A stretch of 64,000 nucleotides of DNA from assembly GCF_900116765.1 (NCBI RefSeq), contig NZ_UETC01000014.1, positions 1 through 64,000 of the forward strand, in the 5' to 3' direction. Shown piece by piece: positions 35,648-41,577 of the stretch. This DNA is from Jannaschia seohaensis (GTDB lineage Bacteria; Pseudomonadota; Alphaproteobacteria; Rhodobacterales; Rhodobacteraceae). A program made the translations under genes and the position numbers. How positions within the stretch are numbered: position 1 is the stretch's first letter; every line of letters begins with the position of its first letter. The notes beneath the pieces were generated by a model. That model was not told the origin of the DNA, did not search any database, and was given only the letters and a program-made list of their open reading frames with translations.

Positions 35648-36598
35648 TCAGGCGCTGCGGCGCAGGAGAGCCAGACCGCCAAGGGCCGCGAGCATCAGCC
35701 AGACCGCCGCAGGCAGCGGAACCGCGGCTACGAACTCACCGCCGGCCGCCTCGATGAAATTGCGCGCCTCTGTGTGACTGACGTCGGTCCACCAGGAGAT
35801 GTCGCCATAGGCGCTGGTCGACGTGGTGCCGCCCAGTAGAATACCTGCGACCGTCCACTCGCCGTTCCGCTTGACCAGGAGCGGACCGCCGCTGTCGCCT
35901 GGGGCGGTGGTGCCCTCGTAAAGGATCGCGTCGGGCGAACTGTTGAAGACCCCGCCGTCCAAGGTGTTCGAGGTGCCGTCAGGGCTATCGAAATCCGTGC
36001 TGATAATATTGGCGCCAGCGGCATAGAAGGTTCCCCCTTCGCCCCCAGGCGCGCCGATCCAATCGACCACGTTGTCCGCCGCCCAACGAGCCCCGTCAGT
36101 CGTGCCCTGATGGCCCACATCGCCCGTGCCGTTCGCACCGTAGCCGACCATCCGTGCCACCTCTCCGACCACGAGGTCGGCGGCGAGTTTGAAGGGGGTG
36201 TAGCCGACGATGGCCTGGGTCATGCGGACGATCGCGAGATCGGTGCCGTAGAAGTCAGAGGGAGGGCTGCTCATATAGCTGATTTCCGAGACGCTTCGCG
36301 ATGCCTGCGTCGCCCCGGCCCCGTTCGTGAAAAGAACCTCGAGTGCGCTCGGGCTGGCGGTGTCGAAGCAGTGTTTTGCCGTCAGCACGGTCGTGGTCGA
36401 GATCAGCGCGCCAGTGCAGAACGGGGAGAAGCCGTTCAAGCTGAAGGTCACGACATTGTCGAAGGGATCACCGAGCGCCTTCGAGGTCGCGATGCCATCG
36501 ACGCTGTTGATGACGATGGCCGGAGCCATCGATGTCGTCAAAACCAAAACGGCGGCGGCGGCGCGGACACGCCGGAACAGGTTTGCGATCGTCTTCAA
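35648..36598 (-). CDS. trypsin-like serine protease with VPLPA-CTERM tail
   Basis: A 316-residue exported S1-family protease. Signal peptide at residues 1-27; catalytic histidine in LTAKHCFD, aspartate in GTDLAIVRM and serine in APGDSGGPLLV. The C-terminus is VPLPAAVWLMLAALGGLALL then RRSA, a VPLPA-CTERM sorting signal that should place it at the envelope. The start is TTG at 36598: the frame opens only there and GGGAG/GGAG precede it. It is convergent with another CTERM protein, which could be its substrate; that is inference. Confidence 0.85.
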   Translation of the reverse strand: MKTIANLFRRVRAAAAVLVLTTSMAPAIVINSVDGIATSKALGDPFDNVVTFSLNGFSPFCTGALISTTTVLTAKHCFDTASPSALEVLFTNGAGATQASRSVSEISYMSSPPSDFYGTDLAIVRMTQAIVGYTPFKLAADLVVGEVARMVGYGANGTGDVGHQGTTDGARWAADNVVDWIGAPGGEGGTFYAAGANIISTDFDSPDGTSNTLDGGVFNSSPDAILYEGTTAPGDSGGPLLVKRNGEWTVAGILLGGTTSTSAYGDISWWTDVSHTEARNFIEAAGGEFVAAVPLPAAVWLMLAALGGLALLRRSA

Positions 36599-36808: not shown

Positions 36809-39232
36809 ATGACCCAGTTCGACGACTCAGACGCCTTCGAGGCCGCCAGCCTCTCCGCGCGCGCGATGCAGGCGCGGCCCGCGCCCTATCTCGACGGTCT
36901 CAACCCCGCGCAGCTTCGAGCGGTTCAGACGCTCGACGGCCCCGTGCTGATGCTGGCGGGCGCGGGCACGGGCAAGACCCGCGCGCTGACCGCACGCATC
37001 GCCCATCTGATGGCGCAGGGCCGCGCCCGCCCGAACGAGATCCTGGCTGTGACCTTCACCAACAAGGCCGCGCGCGAGATGAAGGAGCGGCTGGGCCGGA
37101 TGATGGGTCAGGCCGCGGAGGGGATGCCTTGGCTCGGCACCTTCCACTCGGTCTGCGTCAAGCTGCTCCGCCGCCACGCGGAGCTGGTGGGCCGCACGAT
37201 CCATATCAACGGCGAGCCGCGCGAGCTGCATCTGCGGTCGAACTTCACCATCCTCGACACGGACGACCAGAACCGCCTGCTCAAGCAGCTGATCGAGGCG
37301 GCCGATATCGACCCCAAGCGCTGGCCGCCCCGGATGCTGGGCGGGATCATCGACCATTGGAAGAACCGCGCCTGGACGCCTGACAAGGTTCCGACGCATG
37401 AGGCCGGGGCCTTCGACGGCAAGGGCATCGCGCTCTACCGCCAATATCAGGACCGGCTGCTGACGCTGAACGCCTGCGATTTCGGCGACCTGCTGATGCA
37501 TGTCATAGACATCCTCCAGCGCCATGAGGACGTTCTGGCGCAGTATCGCCGCTGGTTCCGATATATTCTGGTCGACGAGTATCAGGACACCAATGTCGCG
37601 CAGTATCTGTGGCTGCGGCTGTTGGCGGGCGGGCACAAGAATATCTGCTGCGTGGGCGACGACGATCAGTCGATCTACGGCTGGCGCGGGGCGGAGGTCG
37701 GCAACATTCTCCGCTTCGAGCAGGATTTCGAGGGCGCCGAGGTCATCCGGCTGGAGCAGAATTACCGCTCCACGCCGCATATCCTGGCTGCTGCTGCGGG
37801 CGTGATCCAGGGCAACAAGGGGCGGCTGGGCAAGACGCTCTGGACCGAGCTGACCGAGGGCGAGAAGGTCCGCCTGATCGGCCATTGGGACGGCGAGGAG
37901 GAGGCGCGCTGGATCGGCGAGGAGGCCGAGGCGATGACCCGCGGGACGCGCGGCCTCGACCCGTTCAGCCTGGACGGCATGGCGATCCTGGTCCGGGCGG
38001 CCCATCAGATGCGGGCCTTCGAGGACCGGTTCCTGACCATCGGTCTGCCGTATCGCGTGATCGGCGGCCCCCGCTTTTACGAGCGGCTCGAGATCCGGGA
38101 CGCGATGGCCTATTTCCGCCTCGTCGTCAGCCCCGACGACGACCTCGCCTTCGAGCGGATCGTCAACACGCCCAAGCGCGGCCTGGGCGACAAGGCGCAG
38201 CAGACGATCCAGGTCATGGCCCGGTCGAACGGTGTGTCGCTGTTGGAGGGCGCGCGGCTCTGCGTCCGCTCCAAGACGATCGGTGGCAAGGGCGGCCGCG
38301 CGCTGGGGGAGCTTTGCGACGGGCTCGCGCGCTGGCGGGCCGAGATGCTGGATGGGCGCGACCACATCCATCTGGCCGAAGAGATCCTGGACGAGTCGGG
38401 CTATACGGGCTTCTGGCAGAACGAGAAGACGCCCGAGGCCCCCGGCCGGTTGGAGAACCTCAAGGAACTCGTGAAGGCGCTTGAAGCCTTCGAGAACCTC
38501 CAGGGCTTCCTGGAGCATGTCAGCCTCATCATGGACAACGACTCCTCCGGCGAGGAGGAGCCGAAGATCACGCTTATGACCCTCCACGCCGCCAAGGGGC
38601 TGGAGTTTCCGGTCGTGTTCCTGCCCGGCTGGGAGGACGGGCTGTTCCCGTCGCAGCGCTCGATGGACGAGAGCGGCGTCAAGGGCCTGGAGGAGGAACG
38701 TCGGCTGGCCTATGTCGGCATCACCCGCGCGGAAGCGGTCTGTACCATCAGCTTCGCCGCCAATCGCCGCGTCTATGGGCAGTGGCAGTCGGCCCAGCCT
38801 TCCCGCTTCATCGACGAGTTGCCCGCCGAGCATGTCGAGGTGCTGACGCCTCCCGGTCTCTATGGCGGCGGCTTCGGCGCGACCGGCATGGCGGCAGCGC
38901 AGCAGATGGCAATGGGCGGCGGCATGGCCTCCGACCTGACGGACCGCGCGGCCAAGGCCGATGTCTACAATTCGCCGGGCTGGCGGCGGCTGCAATCCAA
39001 CGCGACCCGCACCCTGCGGCAACCCGCCGAGGCGAAGAACCTCGTGATCGATGCGACGGCGGTCAGCGCCTTCGGCCCGGGCGACCGCGTCTTCCATCAG
39101 AAGTTCGGCTATGGCGAGGTGATGGGGGTCGAGGGCGACAAGCTGGAGGTCGAGTTCGACCATGCCGGCACCAAGAAGATCGTGGGGCGCTTTCTGCTCC
39201 CGGCGGATCAGGCGGGCGACACGCCCTTTTAG
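36809..39232 (+). CDS. uvrD: UvrD/PcrA-type ATP-dependent DNA helicase
   Basis: A superfamily 1A 3'-5' helicase for nucleotide-excision and mismatch repair and for clearing stalled forks. The 807-residue protein has Walker A GAGTGKT at 51-57, motif II VDEYQDTN, motif III GDDDQSIYGWRGA, motif V TLHAAKGLEFPVVFLPG and the C-terminal Tudor-like region FHQKFGYGEVMGVEGDKLEV found in PcrA/UvrD. The ATG at 36809 is the first with coding-like sequence. A hairpin (36674-36703) lies upstream. Just past its stop begins the CcsR-like array on the other strand. Confidence 0.93.
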   Translation: MTQFDDSDAFEAASLSARAMQARPAPYLDGLNPAQLRAVQTLDGPVLMLAGAGTGKTRALTARIAHLMAQGRARPNEILAVTFTNKAAREMKERLGRMMGQAAEGMPWLGTFHSVCVKLLRRHAELVGRTIHINGEPRELHLRSNFTILDTDDQNRLLKQLIEAADIDPKRWPPRMLGGIIDHWKNRAWTPDKVPTHEAGAFDGKGIALYRQYQDRLLTLNACDFGDLLMHVIDILQRHEDVLAQYRRWFRYILVDEYQDTNVAQYLWLRLLAGGHKNICCVGDDDQSIYGWRGAEVGNILRFEQDFEGAEVIRLEQNYRSTPHILAAAAGVIQGNKGRLGKTLWTELTEGEKVRLIGHWDGEEEARWIGEEAEAMTRGTRGLDPFSLDGMAILVRAAHQMRAFEDRFLTIGLPYRVIGGPRFYERLEIRDAMAYFRLVVSPDDDLAFERIVNTPKRGLGDKAQQTIQVMARSNGVSLLEGARLCVRSKTIGGKGGRALGELCDGLARWRAEMLDGRDHIHLAEEILDESGYTGFWQNEKTPEAPGRLENLKELVKALEAFENLQGFLEHVSLIMDNDSSGEEEPKITLMTLHAAKGLEFPVVFLPGWEDGLFPSQRSMDESGVKGLEEERRLAYVGITRAEAVCTISFAANRRVYGQWQSAQPSRFIDELPAEHVEVLTPPGLYGGGFGATGMAAAQQMAMGGGMASDLTDRAAKADVYNSPGWRRLQSNATRTLRQPAEAKNLVIDATAVSAFGPGDRVFHQKFGYGEVMGVEGDKLEVEFDHAGTKKIVGRFLLPADQAGDTPF

Positions 39233-39250
39233 TCTTAGCCCCCCAAAGAA

Positions 39251-39941
39251 GCGGCGGCGCCCGAGGGGATGAGGGGGGGCGCCGCCGCGCTTGGGACGTC
39301 GCGCCGATGGGCGACTGTCGGCCACATGTCGCTCCGGTCGATGGCGATGAGGGACACCACGCGCCGGAGACTGGAGGGGAAACGGCGCGGTCCCGTTTCG
39401 GTTCCCGGCGTCATCGTGAAAGAAGAGAGACAGGTTCCGGCGATGCCCTCAGGGAGGAGGAGGAGGGCATCGCCGGCCCGTGGTGTTCGGCAGCCCCGGG
39501 GAGGCGGGGCGCCGAGGGCCGGTCCGATGGAGGAGGGGACCGGCCGGTCACGGCGACGCCCCAAGGGAGGAGGAGGCGGCCGCGATCCGAGTATCTCGTG
39601 CTTTGGGCCCGGCAGGTCCCTCCGAGGAGGGCCGCCGGGCCGGCTGCACAGCGCCTTTGAGGGCGCCGGGGCCTCTCCCACGGCAGGACGGGACAGGCCG
39701 GGAGCGGTCGGGCAAAGGAACGTCATGCCACGGACCGCGCCAAAAATCTTGGCGGGTTCCGGCGACGCCCCCAGGGAGGAGGAAAAGGAGCGCCGCCGGC
39801 CCGTCTGGTCGGCCTCTCCGGGAGGGGAGAGACCGGGGCCGATCCAATGGGAGGAGGGATCGACCCGGTGCGTCGCGACCCAAATGGGAGGAGGGGGCCG
39901 CTTCGCGTCCCGGTCTCGCGTCTAGGGAGGAGACGACGCGA
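39251..39941 (-). ncRNA. CcsR-type small RNA array (about eleven stem-loops, CUCC-rich loops)
   Basis: Read on the minus strand, downstream of a DUF1127 gene, a chain of hairpins carries CCUCCUCCC-like loops. Arms (plus coordinates): 39916-39922/39935-39941; 39875-39881/39895-39901; 39840-39845/39857-39862; 39811-39819/39826-39834; 39759-39768/39790-39799; 39606-39613/39634-39641; 39551-39560/39575-39582; 39517-39525/39537-39545; 39493-39497/39506-39510; 39437-39450/39463-39476; 39251-39262/39277-39288. Several mismatches are G-U pairs in the minus-strand RNA. The third-last stem is CGGC-bulged; the stem at 39437 is 14 bp perfect. In R. sphaeroides such CcsR RNAs are stress-induced and processed from the 3' UTR of a DUF1127 gene. 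The last hairpin lacks the motif and is followed by CTTCTTT, a likely terminator. Confidence 0.82.
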
Positions 39942-39955
39942 TACCGGGTATCTTG

Positions 39956-40180
39956 TCAGCCGCGCTTGCCGTATGCGGCGTCCATGGCGATCGATTTGAT
40001 CATCGAACGGTTCAAGCCGAGATCGGCGAGATCGCGGTTCGACAATTTGGACAGCTCGGCATGGGTCCGGCGATACAGGCGCCAGCGGCCCCAAGCCTCG
40101 CGCAGCGCGCTCAGGCGGGCGCCGAAGTCGTGGCGCAGGGCGTCGGTGCGGATCGAAGAGCCGAATGCAGTATTGGCCAT
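39956..40180 (-). CDS. DUF1127 small protein (CcaF1/RSP_6037-like)
   Basis: A 74-residue basic protein ending in the DUF1127 motif (YRRTHAELSKLSNRDLADLG followed by LNRSMIKS). Such proteins act in RNA or stress regulation in alphaproteobacteria. The R. sphaeroides homologue encoded ahead of the CcsR RNAs is an RNA-binding factor influencing sRNA maturation. The ATG at 40180 follows AAAGGAAAA. The first stem-loop of the array starts 15 bases beyond its stop, so the small RNAs should form its 3' UTR. Family certain; equivalence to CcaF1 inferred from synteny. Confidence 0.85.
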   Translation of the reverse strand: MANTAFGSSIRTDALRHDFGARLSALREAWGRWRLYRRTHAELSKLSNRDLADLGLNRSMIKSIAMDAAYGKRG

Positions 40181-40268
40181 GATATTTTCCTTTCGCGTCT
40201 GGGGGCGTCCGGCCCCCCGGTTCGCAGCCTGGCCGGATTGCCGGGGCCGCCGTGTTTCGTTGATCCCA

Positions 40269-40297
40269 AATTGGTGCCGATGCTGCGGTTGCACAAC
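40269..40297 (-). promoter_or_regulatory. possible RpoH-type promoter of the DUF1127-array transcript
   Basis: On the minus strand GTTGTGC (40297-40291) is followed, after about 16 bases, by CCAATT (40274-40269), loosely like alphaproteobacterial heat-shock sigma promoters (TTG... and CCAT-T). This would give a leader near 80 nt. The match is weak and rests mostly on the known RpoHI/RpoHII control of the R. sphaeroides locus. Confidence 0.3.
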
Positions 40298-40377
40298 TGT
40301 CCCGATGGTCAATGCTGCCATGCAGCATGTGCATGGCCCGGCAGGGAACTTTACGTTGAGGCAAGACGTCTAGACGC

Positions 40378-41577
40378 ATGTCCGCTTTTTCTCATCCCGG
40401 CTTCCGGGCCTATTTCCTCGCCGCCGTCCCTCTCGTCCAAGCGCTCTGGGCGCAGCGCGTCACGCTGGGCTGGCTCGCCTGGGAGGCATCGGGATCGGCC
40501 GCCTTCGTCGGGCTGGTCGCCGCGCTGACGCTGGCGCCGATGCTGATCTCGGGGCCGGTCTTCGGAGTGCTGGTCGATCGGACCGACATCCGTCGGGCGA
40601 TCCGCACGACCTCGGGGGCGATGGCGATGCTCATGGTGGTGGCGGCGCTCCTGGCGGGCGGTCCGGGTCTGAGCCAGGCGATGCTCGTGACCTTGGCGCT
40701 GGCGATCGGGGTGGTGTCTTCGGCCCATCACCCGGTGCGTATGTCGCTGGCCCCCCGGCTGGTTCCGGTAGGCGAGGTGCAGAGCGTCGTGGCGCTGACG
40801 GCGCTCAACTTCAATCTCGCGCGGCTGGTGGCGCCGGCCCTGGCGGGGCTGGCCCTGGCCAGTGTGGGTCCGGTGGCGACGCTCTGGGCTGCGGCCGCGC
40901 TTTATGTCCCGATGCTGGTGGCGGTGCGGTGGATGGCTCCGCGGCCGCTGCCCGTCACCGGCACGCGGGGGTCGATCCGCGAGGGCTTGCGGGACGCGGC
41001 GCGCTTCATCTGGGTCACGCCCGTCGCGCGGCAGGCGATCGTGCTGACGGCGGTCATGGCGGTGCTGGTGCGCGGCTATCTCGAATTGCTGCCGGTCATG
41101 GCCGAGGGCATCCACGGCCGCGGGGCCGAGGGCCTAGGGCTCCTGACCGCCTCGGCCGGGGCGGGGGCGCTGCTGGCCGCGCTGGCCAAGACGGCCGGCC
41201 ACGGGCAGGTGCGCGACGGCGTGCCTGGCCTGATGCGGGTGATCCTGGTGATCGGCGTGCTGGGCCTGGCCCCTCTGGGCCTCGTCGAGGCGTGGTGGGC
41301 CGCGATGGTCTGGACCGCGCTCGCGGGGTTCTCTTCGACCTTCTGCGGCGTGACGCTCCAGGCGATGGTGCAGATGGAACTGCCCGACGATCTGCGCGGG
41401 CGCGTGATGTCGCTTTGGGTCGTCGTCGGGATCGGGGCGGTCGCGCTCGGCTCCGGCGGGCTGGGCTGGTTGGCGGGACTGTTCGGGCTACCGGCGGTCC
41501 TGGTCGGGGCGGGGCTGGCCGGAGGGGCGGTCACTGCGGCGATGGTCTTGCCTTCCCGGAGCGGGCGGCCCACGTAG
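40378..41577 (+). CDS. MFS transporter
   Basis: A 399-residue major facilitator with about twelve hydrophobic segments. The inter-helix loop FGVLVDRTDIRRAIRTTS (residues about 62-79) is the MFS motif A region. It resembles the enterobactin-exporter/EntS-like subfamily of drug or siderophore exporters, but the substrate cannot be assigned. Divergent from the DUF1127 gene; the start at 40378 has only a weak Shine-Dalgarno. Confidence 0.85.
   Translation: MSAFSHPGFRAYFLAAVPLVQALWAQRVTLGWLAWEASGSAAFVGLVAALTLAPMLISGPVFGVLVDRTDIRRAIRTTSGAMAMLMVVAALLAGGPGLSQAMLVTLALAIGVVSSAHHPVRMSLAPRLVPVGEVQSVVALTALNFNLARLVAPALAGLALASVGPVATLWAAAALYVPMLVAVRWMAPRPLPVTGTRGSIREGLRDAARFIWVTPVARQAIVLTAVMAVLVRGYLELLPVMAEGIHGRGAEGLGLLTASAGAGALLAALAKTAGHGQVRDGVPGLMRVILVIGVLGLAPLGLVEAWWAAMVWTALAGFSSTFCGVTLQAMVQMELPDDLRGRVMSLWVVVGIGAVALGSGGLGWLAGLFGLPAVLVGAGLAGGAVTAAMVLPSRSGRPT

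Follow-up and report, generated by a model that had tools for sequence, protein, structure and literature searches.

The 64-kb window analysed here, a stretch of the 4.84 Mb genome of Jannaschia seohaensis, contains a CIN1 locus: a gene for a small DUF1127 protein is directly followed, on the same strand, by an array of cuckoo/CcsR/ar14-type RNAs. The arrangement has already been described under this name and is reported to be often found in alphaproteobacteria (PMC10253847); such hairpin chains behind DUF1127 genes are known and common in Rhodobacteraceae. We consider it likely (probability about 0.8) that the locus produces a single stress-driven transcript that is processed to anti-Shine-Dalgarno (anti-SD) RNAs of the CcsR/cuckoo type. 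The locus is of a known type at the top of its size range, and duplication of a four-hairpin module is the source of most of its extra hairpins. Less expected is a strongly conserved control site 5′ of the DUF1127 gene, and the link between promoter and regulator is the part worth an experiment.

The gene was identified by a Pfam profile search, in which PF06568 matched 40180-39959 on the minus strand. Hairpins 1-5 were defined by scan, fold and genus alignment, hairpins 6-11 by scan and fold, and the terminator by fold:

39956-40180, minus strand: DUF1127 gene, 74 aa, CcaF1-like (PF06568 53.4 bits, cut-off 23.3)
39909-39948, minus strand: hairpin 1, loop GUCUCCUCCCUA
39875-39901, minus strand: hairpin 2, loop CCUCCUCCCAUUU
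39836-39866, minus strand: hairpin 3, loop CUCCUCCCAUU
39810-39835, minus strand: hairpin 4, loop CCCUCCCG
39759-39799, minus strand: hairpin 5, loop UUUCCUCCUCCCU
39606-39641, minus strand: hairpin 6, CCUCC predicted to be paired inside the hairpin, hence no open loop
39548-39585, minus strand: hairpin 7, loop region with CUCCUCCUCCCUU
39517-39545, minus strand: hairpin 8, loop CCUCCUCCAUC
39487-39515, minus strand: hairpin 9, loop GCCUCCCCG
39437-39476, minus strand: hairpin 10, loop CUCCUCCUCCCU
39360-39389, minus strand: hairpin 11, loop UUUCCCCUCCAGUCUC
39251-39288, minus strand: terminator hairpin at the array end

The first-pass annotation had described at least nine minus-strand stem-loops with CUCC loops behind the DUF1127 gene. 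A mechanical scan of 39230-39955 found 11 minus-strand hairpins with CCTCC in the loop, in addition to the terminator, which is above anything seen in 200 dinucleotide shuffles (mean 3.0, maximum 7). The same scan gave seven minus-strand hairpins with a CTCCTCC loop (shuffles: mean 0.31, maximum 2), while the plus strand of the region had one CCTCC hairpin and no CTCCTCC hairpin. For the looser motif CTCC, the shuffles rise to a mean of 6.2 and a maximum of 13 while the array still has its 11 hairpins, so this motif alone would not convince. The exact loop sequence previously noted in several hairpins, CCTCCTCCC, has five copies in the array, with starts at 39452, 39565, 39774, 39849 and 39886. 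The minus strand has a folding energy z of -8.4, and the plus strand of the array folds well too (z -6.3; 20 shuffles each). The terminator loop of J. seohaensis, CCCCUCAUCCCCUC, does not contain CCUCC. Across the genus, 17 of 19 script-picked terminator hairpins have a CCTCC loop (the picks in genomes G002, G006 and G013 are doubtful, and G007 yielded none).

Covariation was analysed for hairpins 1-5 and the terminator using 15-20 distinct sequences from 20 Jannaschia genomes. As the hairpin finder fitted this set with the motif as its anchor, both the native pairing of the seven inner pairs (89.5-99.2%) and the identity of the loops (79-87%, against 36-55% for the 5′ stem arms) are high partly by construction, and the informative part is therefore the swapped-arm comparison: pairing falls to 46-67% when 3′ arms are exchanged between species, and at none of the six positions did any of 2000 permutations reach the native value. 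The array shows the conserved loop and the unconserved, compensating stems of the cuckoo RNA family. The proposal that the stems differ and drift in a compensatory manner under conserved loops is upheld across the genus, as is the conservation of loop motifs in related genomes on which it had been made to depend. Under a strand-neutral stem rule, the 98 distinct loci (described below) have 269 G-U, 70 A-C and 227 other mismatches, and the J. seohaensis array has 6 G-U, 0 A-C and 3 other. The excess of G-U over A-C (269 vs 70) identifies the minus strand as the RNA, and the G-U mismatches do fix the transcribed strand as had been suggested.

Rfam covariance models were run over 39200-40400. CcsR1 (RF02791) matches 39325-39246 with 35.9 bits (E 8e-7) and 39833-39757 with 24.0 bits (E 0.003), and ar14 (RF02344) matches 39951-39831 with 39.9 bits (E 1.3e-5). 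These scores agree with the CcsR-like identity proposed by the first-pass annotation, which had named a search with a CcsR model as a check, and they lie below the gathering scores of 65.3 (CcsR1) and 58.8 bits (ar14), so that at gathering level the array locus has no Rfam match. In the related locus L023, ar14 scores 67.4 bits and is above gathering.

Like the ccaF1-CcsR1-4 locus of Rhodobacter sphaeroides, the J. seohaensis locus has a DUF1127 gene, a same-strand array directly downstream, CCUCCUCCC-type loops, a putative RpoH-like promoter and a final terminator. For the R. sphaeroides CIN1 locus, co-transcription, processing by RNase E, an RpoHI/RpoHII promoter and a final terminator are reported; RSs0680a of the same species is reported to have two stem-loops. 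The present locus, described from its sequence, differs in having about 12 hairpins instead of four CcsR RNAs, a looser loop consensus, a CcsR1 score below gathering and a duplicated module. With the cuckoo/ar14 RNA NfeR1 of Sinorhizobium meliloti it shares variable stems, conserved CCUCCUCCC loops and an upstream TGCA-N6-GCAT box. Cuckoo RNAs are described as having 2-4 hairpins with conserved loops (PMC4504443), against about 12 in the whole locus here, and NfeR1 has a sigma-70 promoter, whereas here the DUF1127 gene leads the predicted transcript and the promoter looks RpoH-like.

The J. seohaensis genome also holds a stand-alone two-hairpin cuckoo-type RNA on the plus strand of C17 at ∼414094-414184 (L061 795-885), with no apparent adjoining DUF1127 gene and an ar14 score of 32.0 bits (E 0.017), below gathering. 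Two double motif matches on C18 (L062, L063) were dropped as they resemble coding sequence.

The spread of the array was assessed over 103 loci, an uneven sample of the family made up of 23 loci and the best 80 of at least 525 confirmed places; 98 are distinct after removal of five Jannaschia loci that duplicate other genomes, and the duplicates are kept in counts of 103. Among these loci, chosen by their DUF1127 gene, an array of at least two hairpins was found in 101 of 103 (96 of the 98 distinct); only G020 and a Pseudooceanicola MAG are without one. In all 20 Jannaschia genomes examined, the own one included, an orthologue of the gene is immediately followed by an array of 6-11 CCUCC hairpins. 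A uvrD-type helicase gene runs convergent with the array and ends at 39232. Within the flanks examined, 70 of 103 loci likewise have the C-terminal part of this helicase downstream, facing the array. A search for CTCCTCC-N20-50-CTCCTCC over 120 family genomes matched 113 and was discarded as a count since the backwards control was also high, the motif being near its own mirror image.

With 11 hairpins the J. seohaensis array is in the upper tail, tied with four other loci and below the highest count of 13 in Salipiger bermudensis and a Pelagimonas isolate; these counts are mechanical, and at some array ends they probably take in hairpins of neighbouring genes. The array had been called expanded, which holds in comparison with the four CcsR RNAs of R. 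sphaeroides, but at least seven hairpins are counted in 55 of 103 loci. Most of the extra length relative to the Jannaschia median of 8 hairpins is explained by a duplicated block:

39756-39907, minus strand: four-hairpin module, first copy (hairpins 2-5), aligned to the second copy
39434-39584, minus strand: four-hairpin module, second copy (hairpins 7-10), aligned to the first copy

The copies align over their length with a score of 147 (300 shuffles: mean 47, maximum 75). When the same block from the 19 other Jannaschia genomes was aligned with each of the two copies, the scores were 61-122. The copies are thus closer to each other than to those of other Jannaschia, which points to duplication in the J. 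seohaensis lineage, although later conversion between the copies would give the same pattern. The array is a well-resolved case of RNA growth, in which a four-hairpin module was copied and its stems are drifting. One array in another genus (G086:C4:691718-692437) consists of near-identical tandem units ∼114 bases apart and is homogeneous, not diverged.

Upstream of the DUF1127 gene, an alignment of 20 Jannaschia genomes shows a block of approximately ATGCANNTGCTGCATRGCNGCATTGA, 11-12 bases, TTGTGCANNYGCAGCAT, and then CCATCT or a variant. The elements in J. seohaensis, with a predicted transcription start near 40260, are:

40320-40333, minus strand: box 1, TGCACATGCTGCAT (TGCA-N6-GCAT, T-N11-A type), conserved upstream of family loci
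40310-40324, minus strand: VtlR-like site TGCATGGCAGCATTG, agreeing at 14 of 15 positions with the published Brucella VtlR motif in reverse complement
40280-40296, minus strand: TTGTGCAACCGCAGCAT, putative RpoH-type -35 (TTG) fused to box 2, element in 93 of 98 distinct loci
40268-40274, minus strand: putative RpoH-type -10 (CCAATTT), placed by published position rules (PMC3441632)

The promoters share this composite element: a match to the VtlR motif reported for Brucella (PMC12595884), starting 27-28 bases before TTGTGCA..YGCAGCA, and then an RpoH-like -10. TGCA-N6-GCAT is present upstream in 91 of 103 loci, against a mean of 2.7 and a maximum of 6 in 20 shuffle rounds. The VtlR motif was found with at most two mismatches in 69 of 98 regions; among 980 shuffles this happened twice, and among 360 control windows once. 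The TTGTGC element is missing from 5 of the 98 distinct loci; among the 93 that have it, a VtlR-like site with at most three mismatches stands at the fixed 27-28 bases before TTGTGC in 85, and a weak one (4-8 mismatches) in 8. At the stand-alone cuckoo RNA the VtlR-like box is absent (best match 6 mismatches).

The published RpoHI/RpoHII logos have TTG at -36..-34, A at -12 and T at -9 (PMC3441632), and the J. seohaensis promoter sequence fits this rule. With TTG set at -36..-34, 82% of the 93 loci, which were selected by the TTG element itself, have T at -9; A occupies -12 in 49% of them and -13 in 53%. As the A falls in two registers, the -10 assignment is approximate. Counted from the predicted start, box 1 would lie at -73 to -60. 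In S. meliloti, LsrB is reported to activate the ar14 RNA NfeR1 via TGCA-N6-GCAT at -72 to -60 (PMC10746234). Since our start site is itself a prediction, this agreement is suggestive only.

Among the matches listed, TTGTGCA..GCAGCA occurs once in the own genome, at the DUF1127 locus. Its specificity was examined in 20 chosen regions from 11 genomes with at least two listed matches (the presumed main-array match was omitted in six). Seven of the 21 occurrences precede a DUF1127-like gene, six with 1-2 VtlR mismatches and one with 5; each of the six good VtlR sites stands before a DUF1127 gene that has 2-8 hairpins. In a Pfam search of these seven genes only, cut at 70 residues, six pass 23.3 bits and one scores 20.3. 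The other 14 occurrences have 5-8 VtlR mismatches and no DUF1127-like gene, as judged by eye from one longest printed frame. TTGTGCA..GCAGCA alone is not specific. The strict full composite was found in 2 of 289 genomes sampled class-wide, namely in 2 of the 4 Rhodobacteraceae and 0 of the 285 others. L298 and L303, from two genomes, are apparently second DUF1127-like genes, each with TTGTGCA..GCAGCA and two hairpins; one has a good VtlR-like site and the other a poor one.

A candidate for the protein that binds the conserved site is a LysR-type regulator (LTTR) resembling LsrB/VtlR. A search of 18 Jannaschia genomes with a trxB-linked LTTR from another family of the class (L189) gave a single relative per genome at E 1e-40 or better, with 45-48% identity. 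The J. seohaensis gene, single copy at the thresholds used, is at G000:C17:100837-101700 (L220 1483-2406). The closest solved relative of its product is A. tumefaciens LsrB (9HH1, E 3.9e-70; next 1e-27), and its HTH is 73-80% identical to those of three trxB-linked LTTRs, as expected of an LsrB/VtlR orthologue. LsrB has been called unique to Rhizobiales on the basis of a tree of few species (PMC11975290); at E 1e-60 or better, the LTTR was found once in 116 of 120 sampled family genera (107 of 108 among good genomes). It differs from LsrB/VtlR in its effector part (35-42% identical) and in the absence of the LsrB cysteine pair (C144 and C273 of A. tumefaciens), having a single Cys at 190. An LTTR adjoins trxB in 7 of 12 other-family loci (by eye and a loose pattern) but not in J. 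seohaensis, where trxB is on C14, nor in the Jannaschia genome G013. The own LTTR gene is near a sufE-like gene (by eye).

With LsrB/VtlR it shares a similar HTH and a matching operator motif, and DUF1127 genes are reported among the VtlR targets of Brucella. From the sequence we propose that an RpoH sigma factor and this LsrB/VtlR-like LysR regulator drive transcription of the locus. We would give even odds to a broader proposal, in which the near-universal, single-copy LsrB/VtlR-like protein of Rhodobacteraceae and the RpoH-type promoter control a very small regulon of DUF1127 genes and anti-SD arrays, making LTTR, DUF1127 protein and anti-SD RNA one ancient alphaproteobacterial module. If bound as proposed, the promoter pattern would connect CcsR in Rhodobacteraceae with the rhizobial and Brucella LsrB/VtlR network and would offer a testable reason for the recurrent pairing of DUF1127 proteins with anti-SD RNAs. 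In the literature searched, a partial set, there was no report of LysR-type control of CcsR or ccaF1; none of the CcsR papers matched contained "LysR-type", and in the available text of two ccaF1 papers (PMC12501420, PMC11089165) the term occurred only in a reference title.

It is possible, though we think it unlikely, that another regulator binds the conserved box. What ties the LTTR to the box is similarity of motif and HTH, its gene is not beside trxB, and the cysteine pair is absent. Furthermore, none of 18 Jannaschia genomes has a VtlR-like box before the LTTR gene itself (4-7 mismatches at best), though lsrB is reported to be autoregulated in Agrobacterium; G020 keeps the LTTR and has no box, and in G022, where LTTR and array are both present, the best site has 4 mismatches and the TTGTGC element is missing. 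Against another regulator stand the enrichment of the VtlR motif over shuffles and control windows and the HTH identity of 73-80%.

We propose that a stress promoter would give one transcript encoding the 74-aa CcaF1-like DUF1127 protein and carrying a 3′ chain of ∼12 hairpins. By analogy with R. sphaeroides CcsR and S. meliloti NfeR1, this chain would be cut into short CcsR/cuckoo-type RNAs by RNase E, with the DUF1127 protein assisting or restraining the enzyme. The exposed CCUCCUCCC-type loops of these RNAs would pair with Shine-Dalgarno sequences in many mRNAs, which would then be less well translated or less stable, and the redundant loops would set dose and breadth. Loops of this kind have been described as anti-SD (PMC3927594). 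The anti-SD motifs of NfeR1 are reported to be redundant and needed to silence ntrB, silencing being abolished when all three are mutated. Counting against this model, the Rfam scores stay below gathering, the plus strand folds well too, hairpin 6 hides the motif and the terminator loop is without it. There are 37 extended SD sites (GGGAGGAG before ATG) in the genome, so the mRNA targets of the array are not singled out. The RNA role of the DUF1127 protein is debated: R. sphaeroides CcaF1 is also reported to complement an Agrobacterium phosphate defect that acts through protein-protein contact with PhoR (PMC12501420).

The loops may instead mainly bind the DUF1127 protein or another RNA-binding protein, in which case the array would act as a sponge or a feedback device, with pairing to mRNAs secondary. 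Many copies of one loop suit a sponge, the array is kept in nearly all loci chosen by their DUF1127 gene, and RNA binding by CcaF1 and an influence of it on the maturation of CcsR have been reported. We doubt this explanation and regard it as quite improbable, since the stand-alone two-hairpin RNA has no apparent adjoining DUF1127 gene and ntrB silencing is reported to be lost with the three NfeR1 motifs.

We see very little chance that the hairpins do no more than stabilise the DUF1127 mRNA or terminate it, with a loop motif that has no partner. The last hairpin does look like a terminator, and 3′ hairpins protect mRNAs in general, but loops that are so much better conserved than the 5′ arms are unexpected for a purely structural role. 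That the region is protein-coding is next to impossible, as compensatory stem changes, conserved loops and hairpin spacings that vary between relatives argue against it, and the open frames crossing the array (163 aa on the minus and 218 aa on the plus strand) are expected at 72% G+C.

Elsewhere in the window, the product of 35651-36598 on the minus strand, by eye a trypsin-like protease, carries a VPLPA-CTERM sorting signal (32.3 bits, cut-off 25.35). An ALIL pseudoknot, which we take to be an element of IS3-type insertion sequences, is present at 6-113 on the plus strand (81.7 bits).
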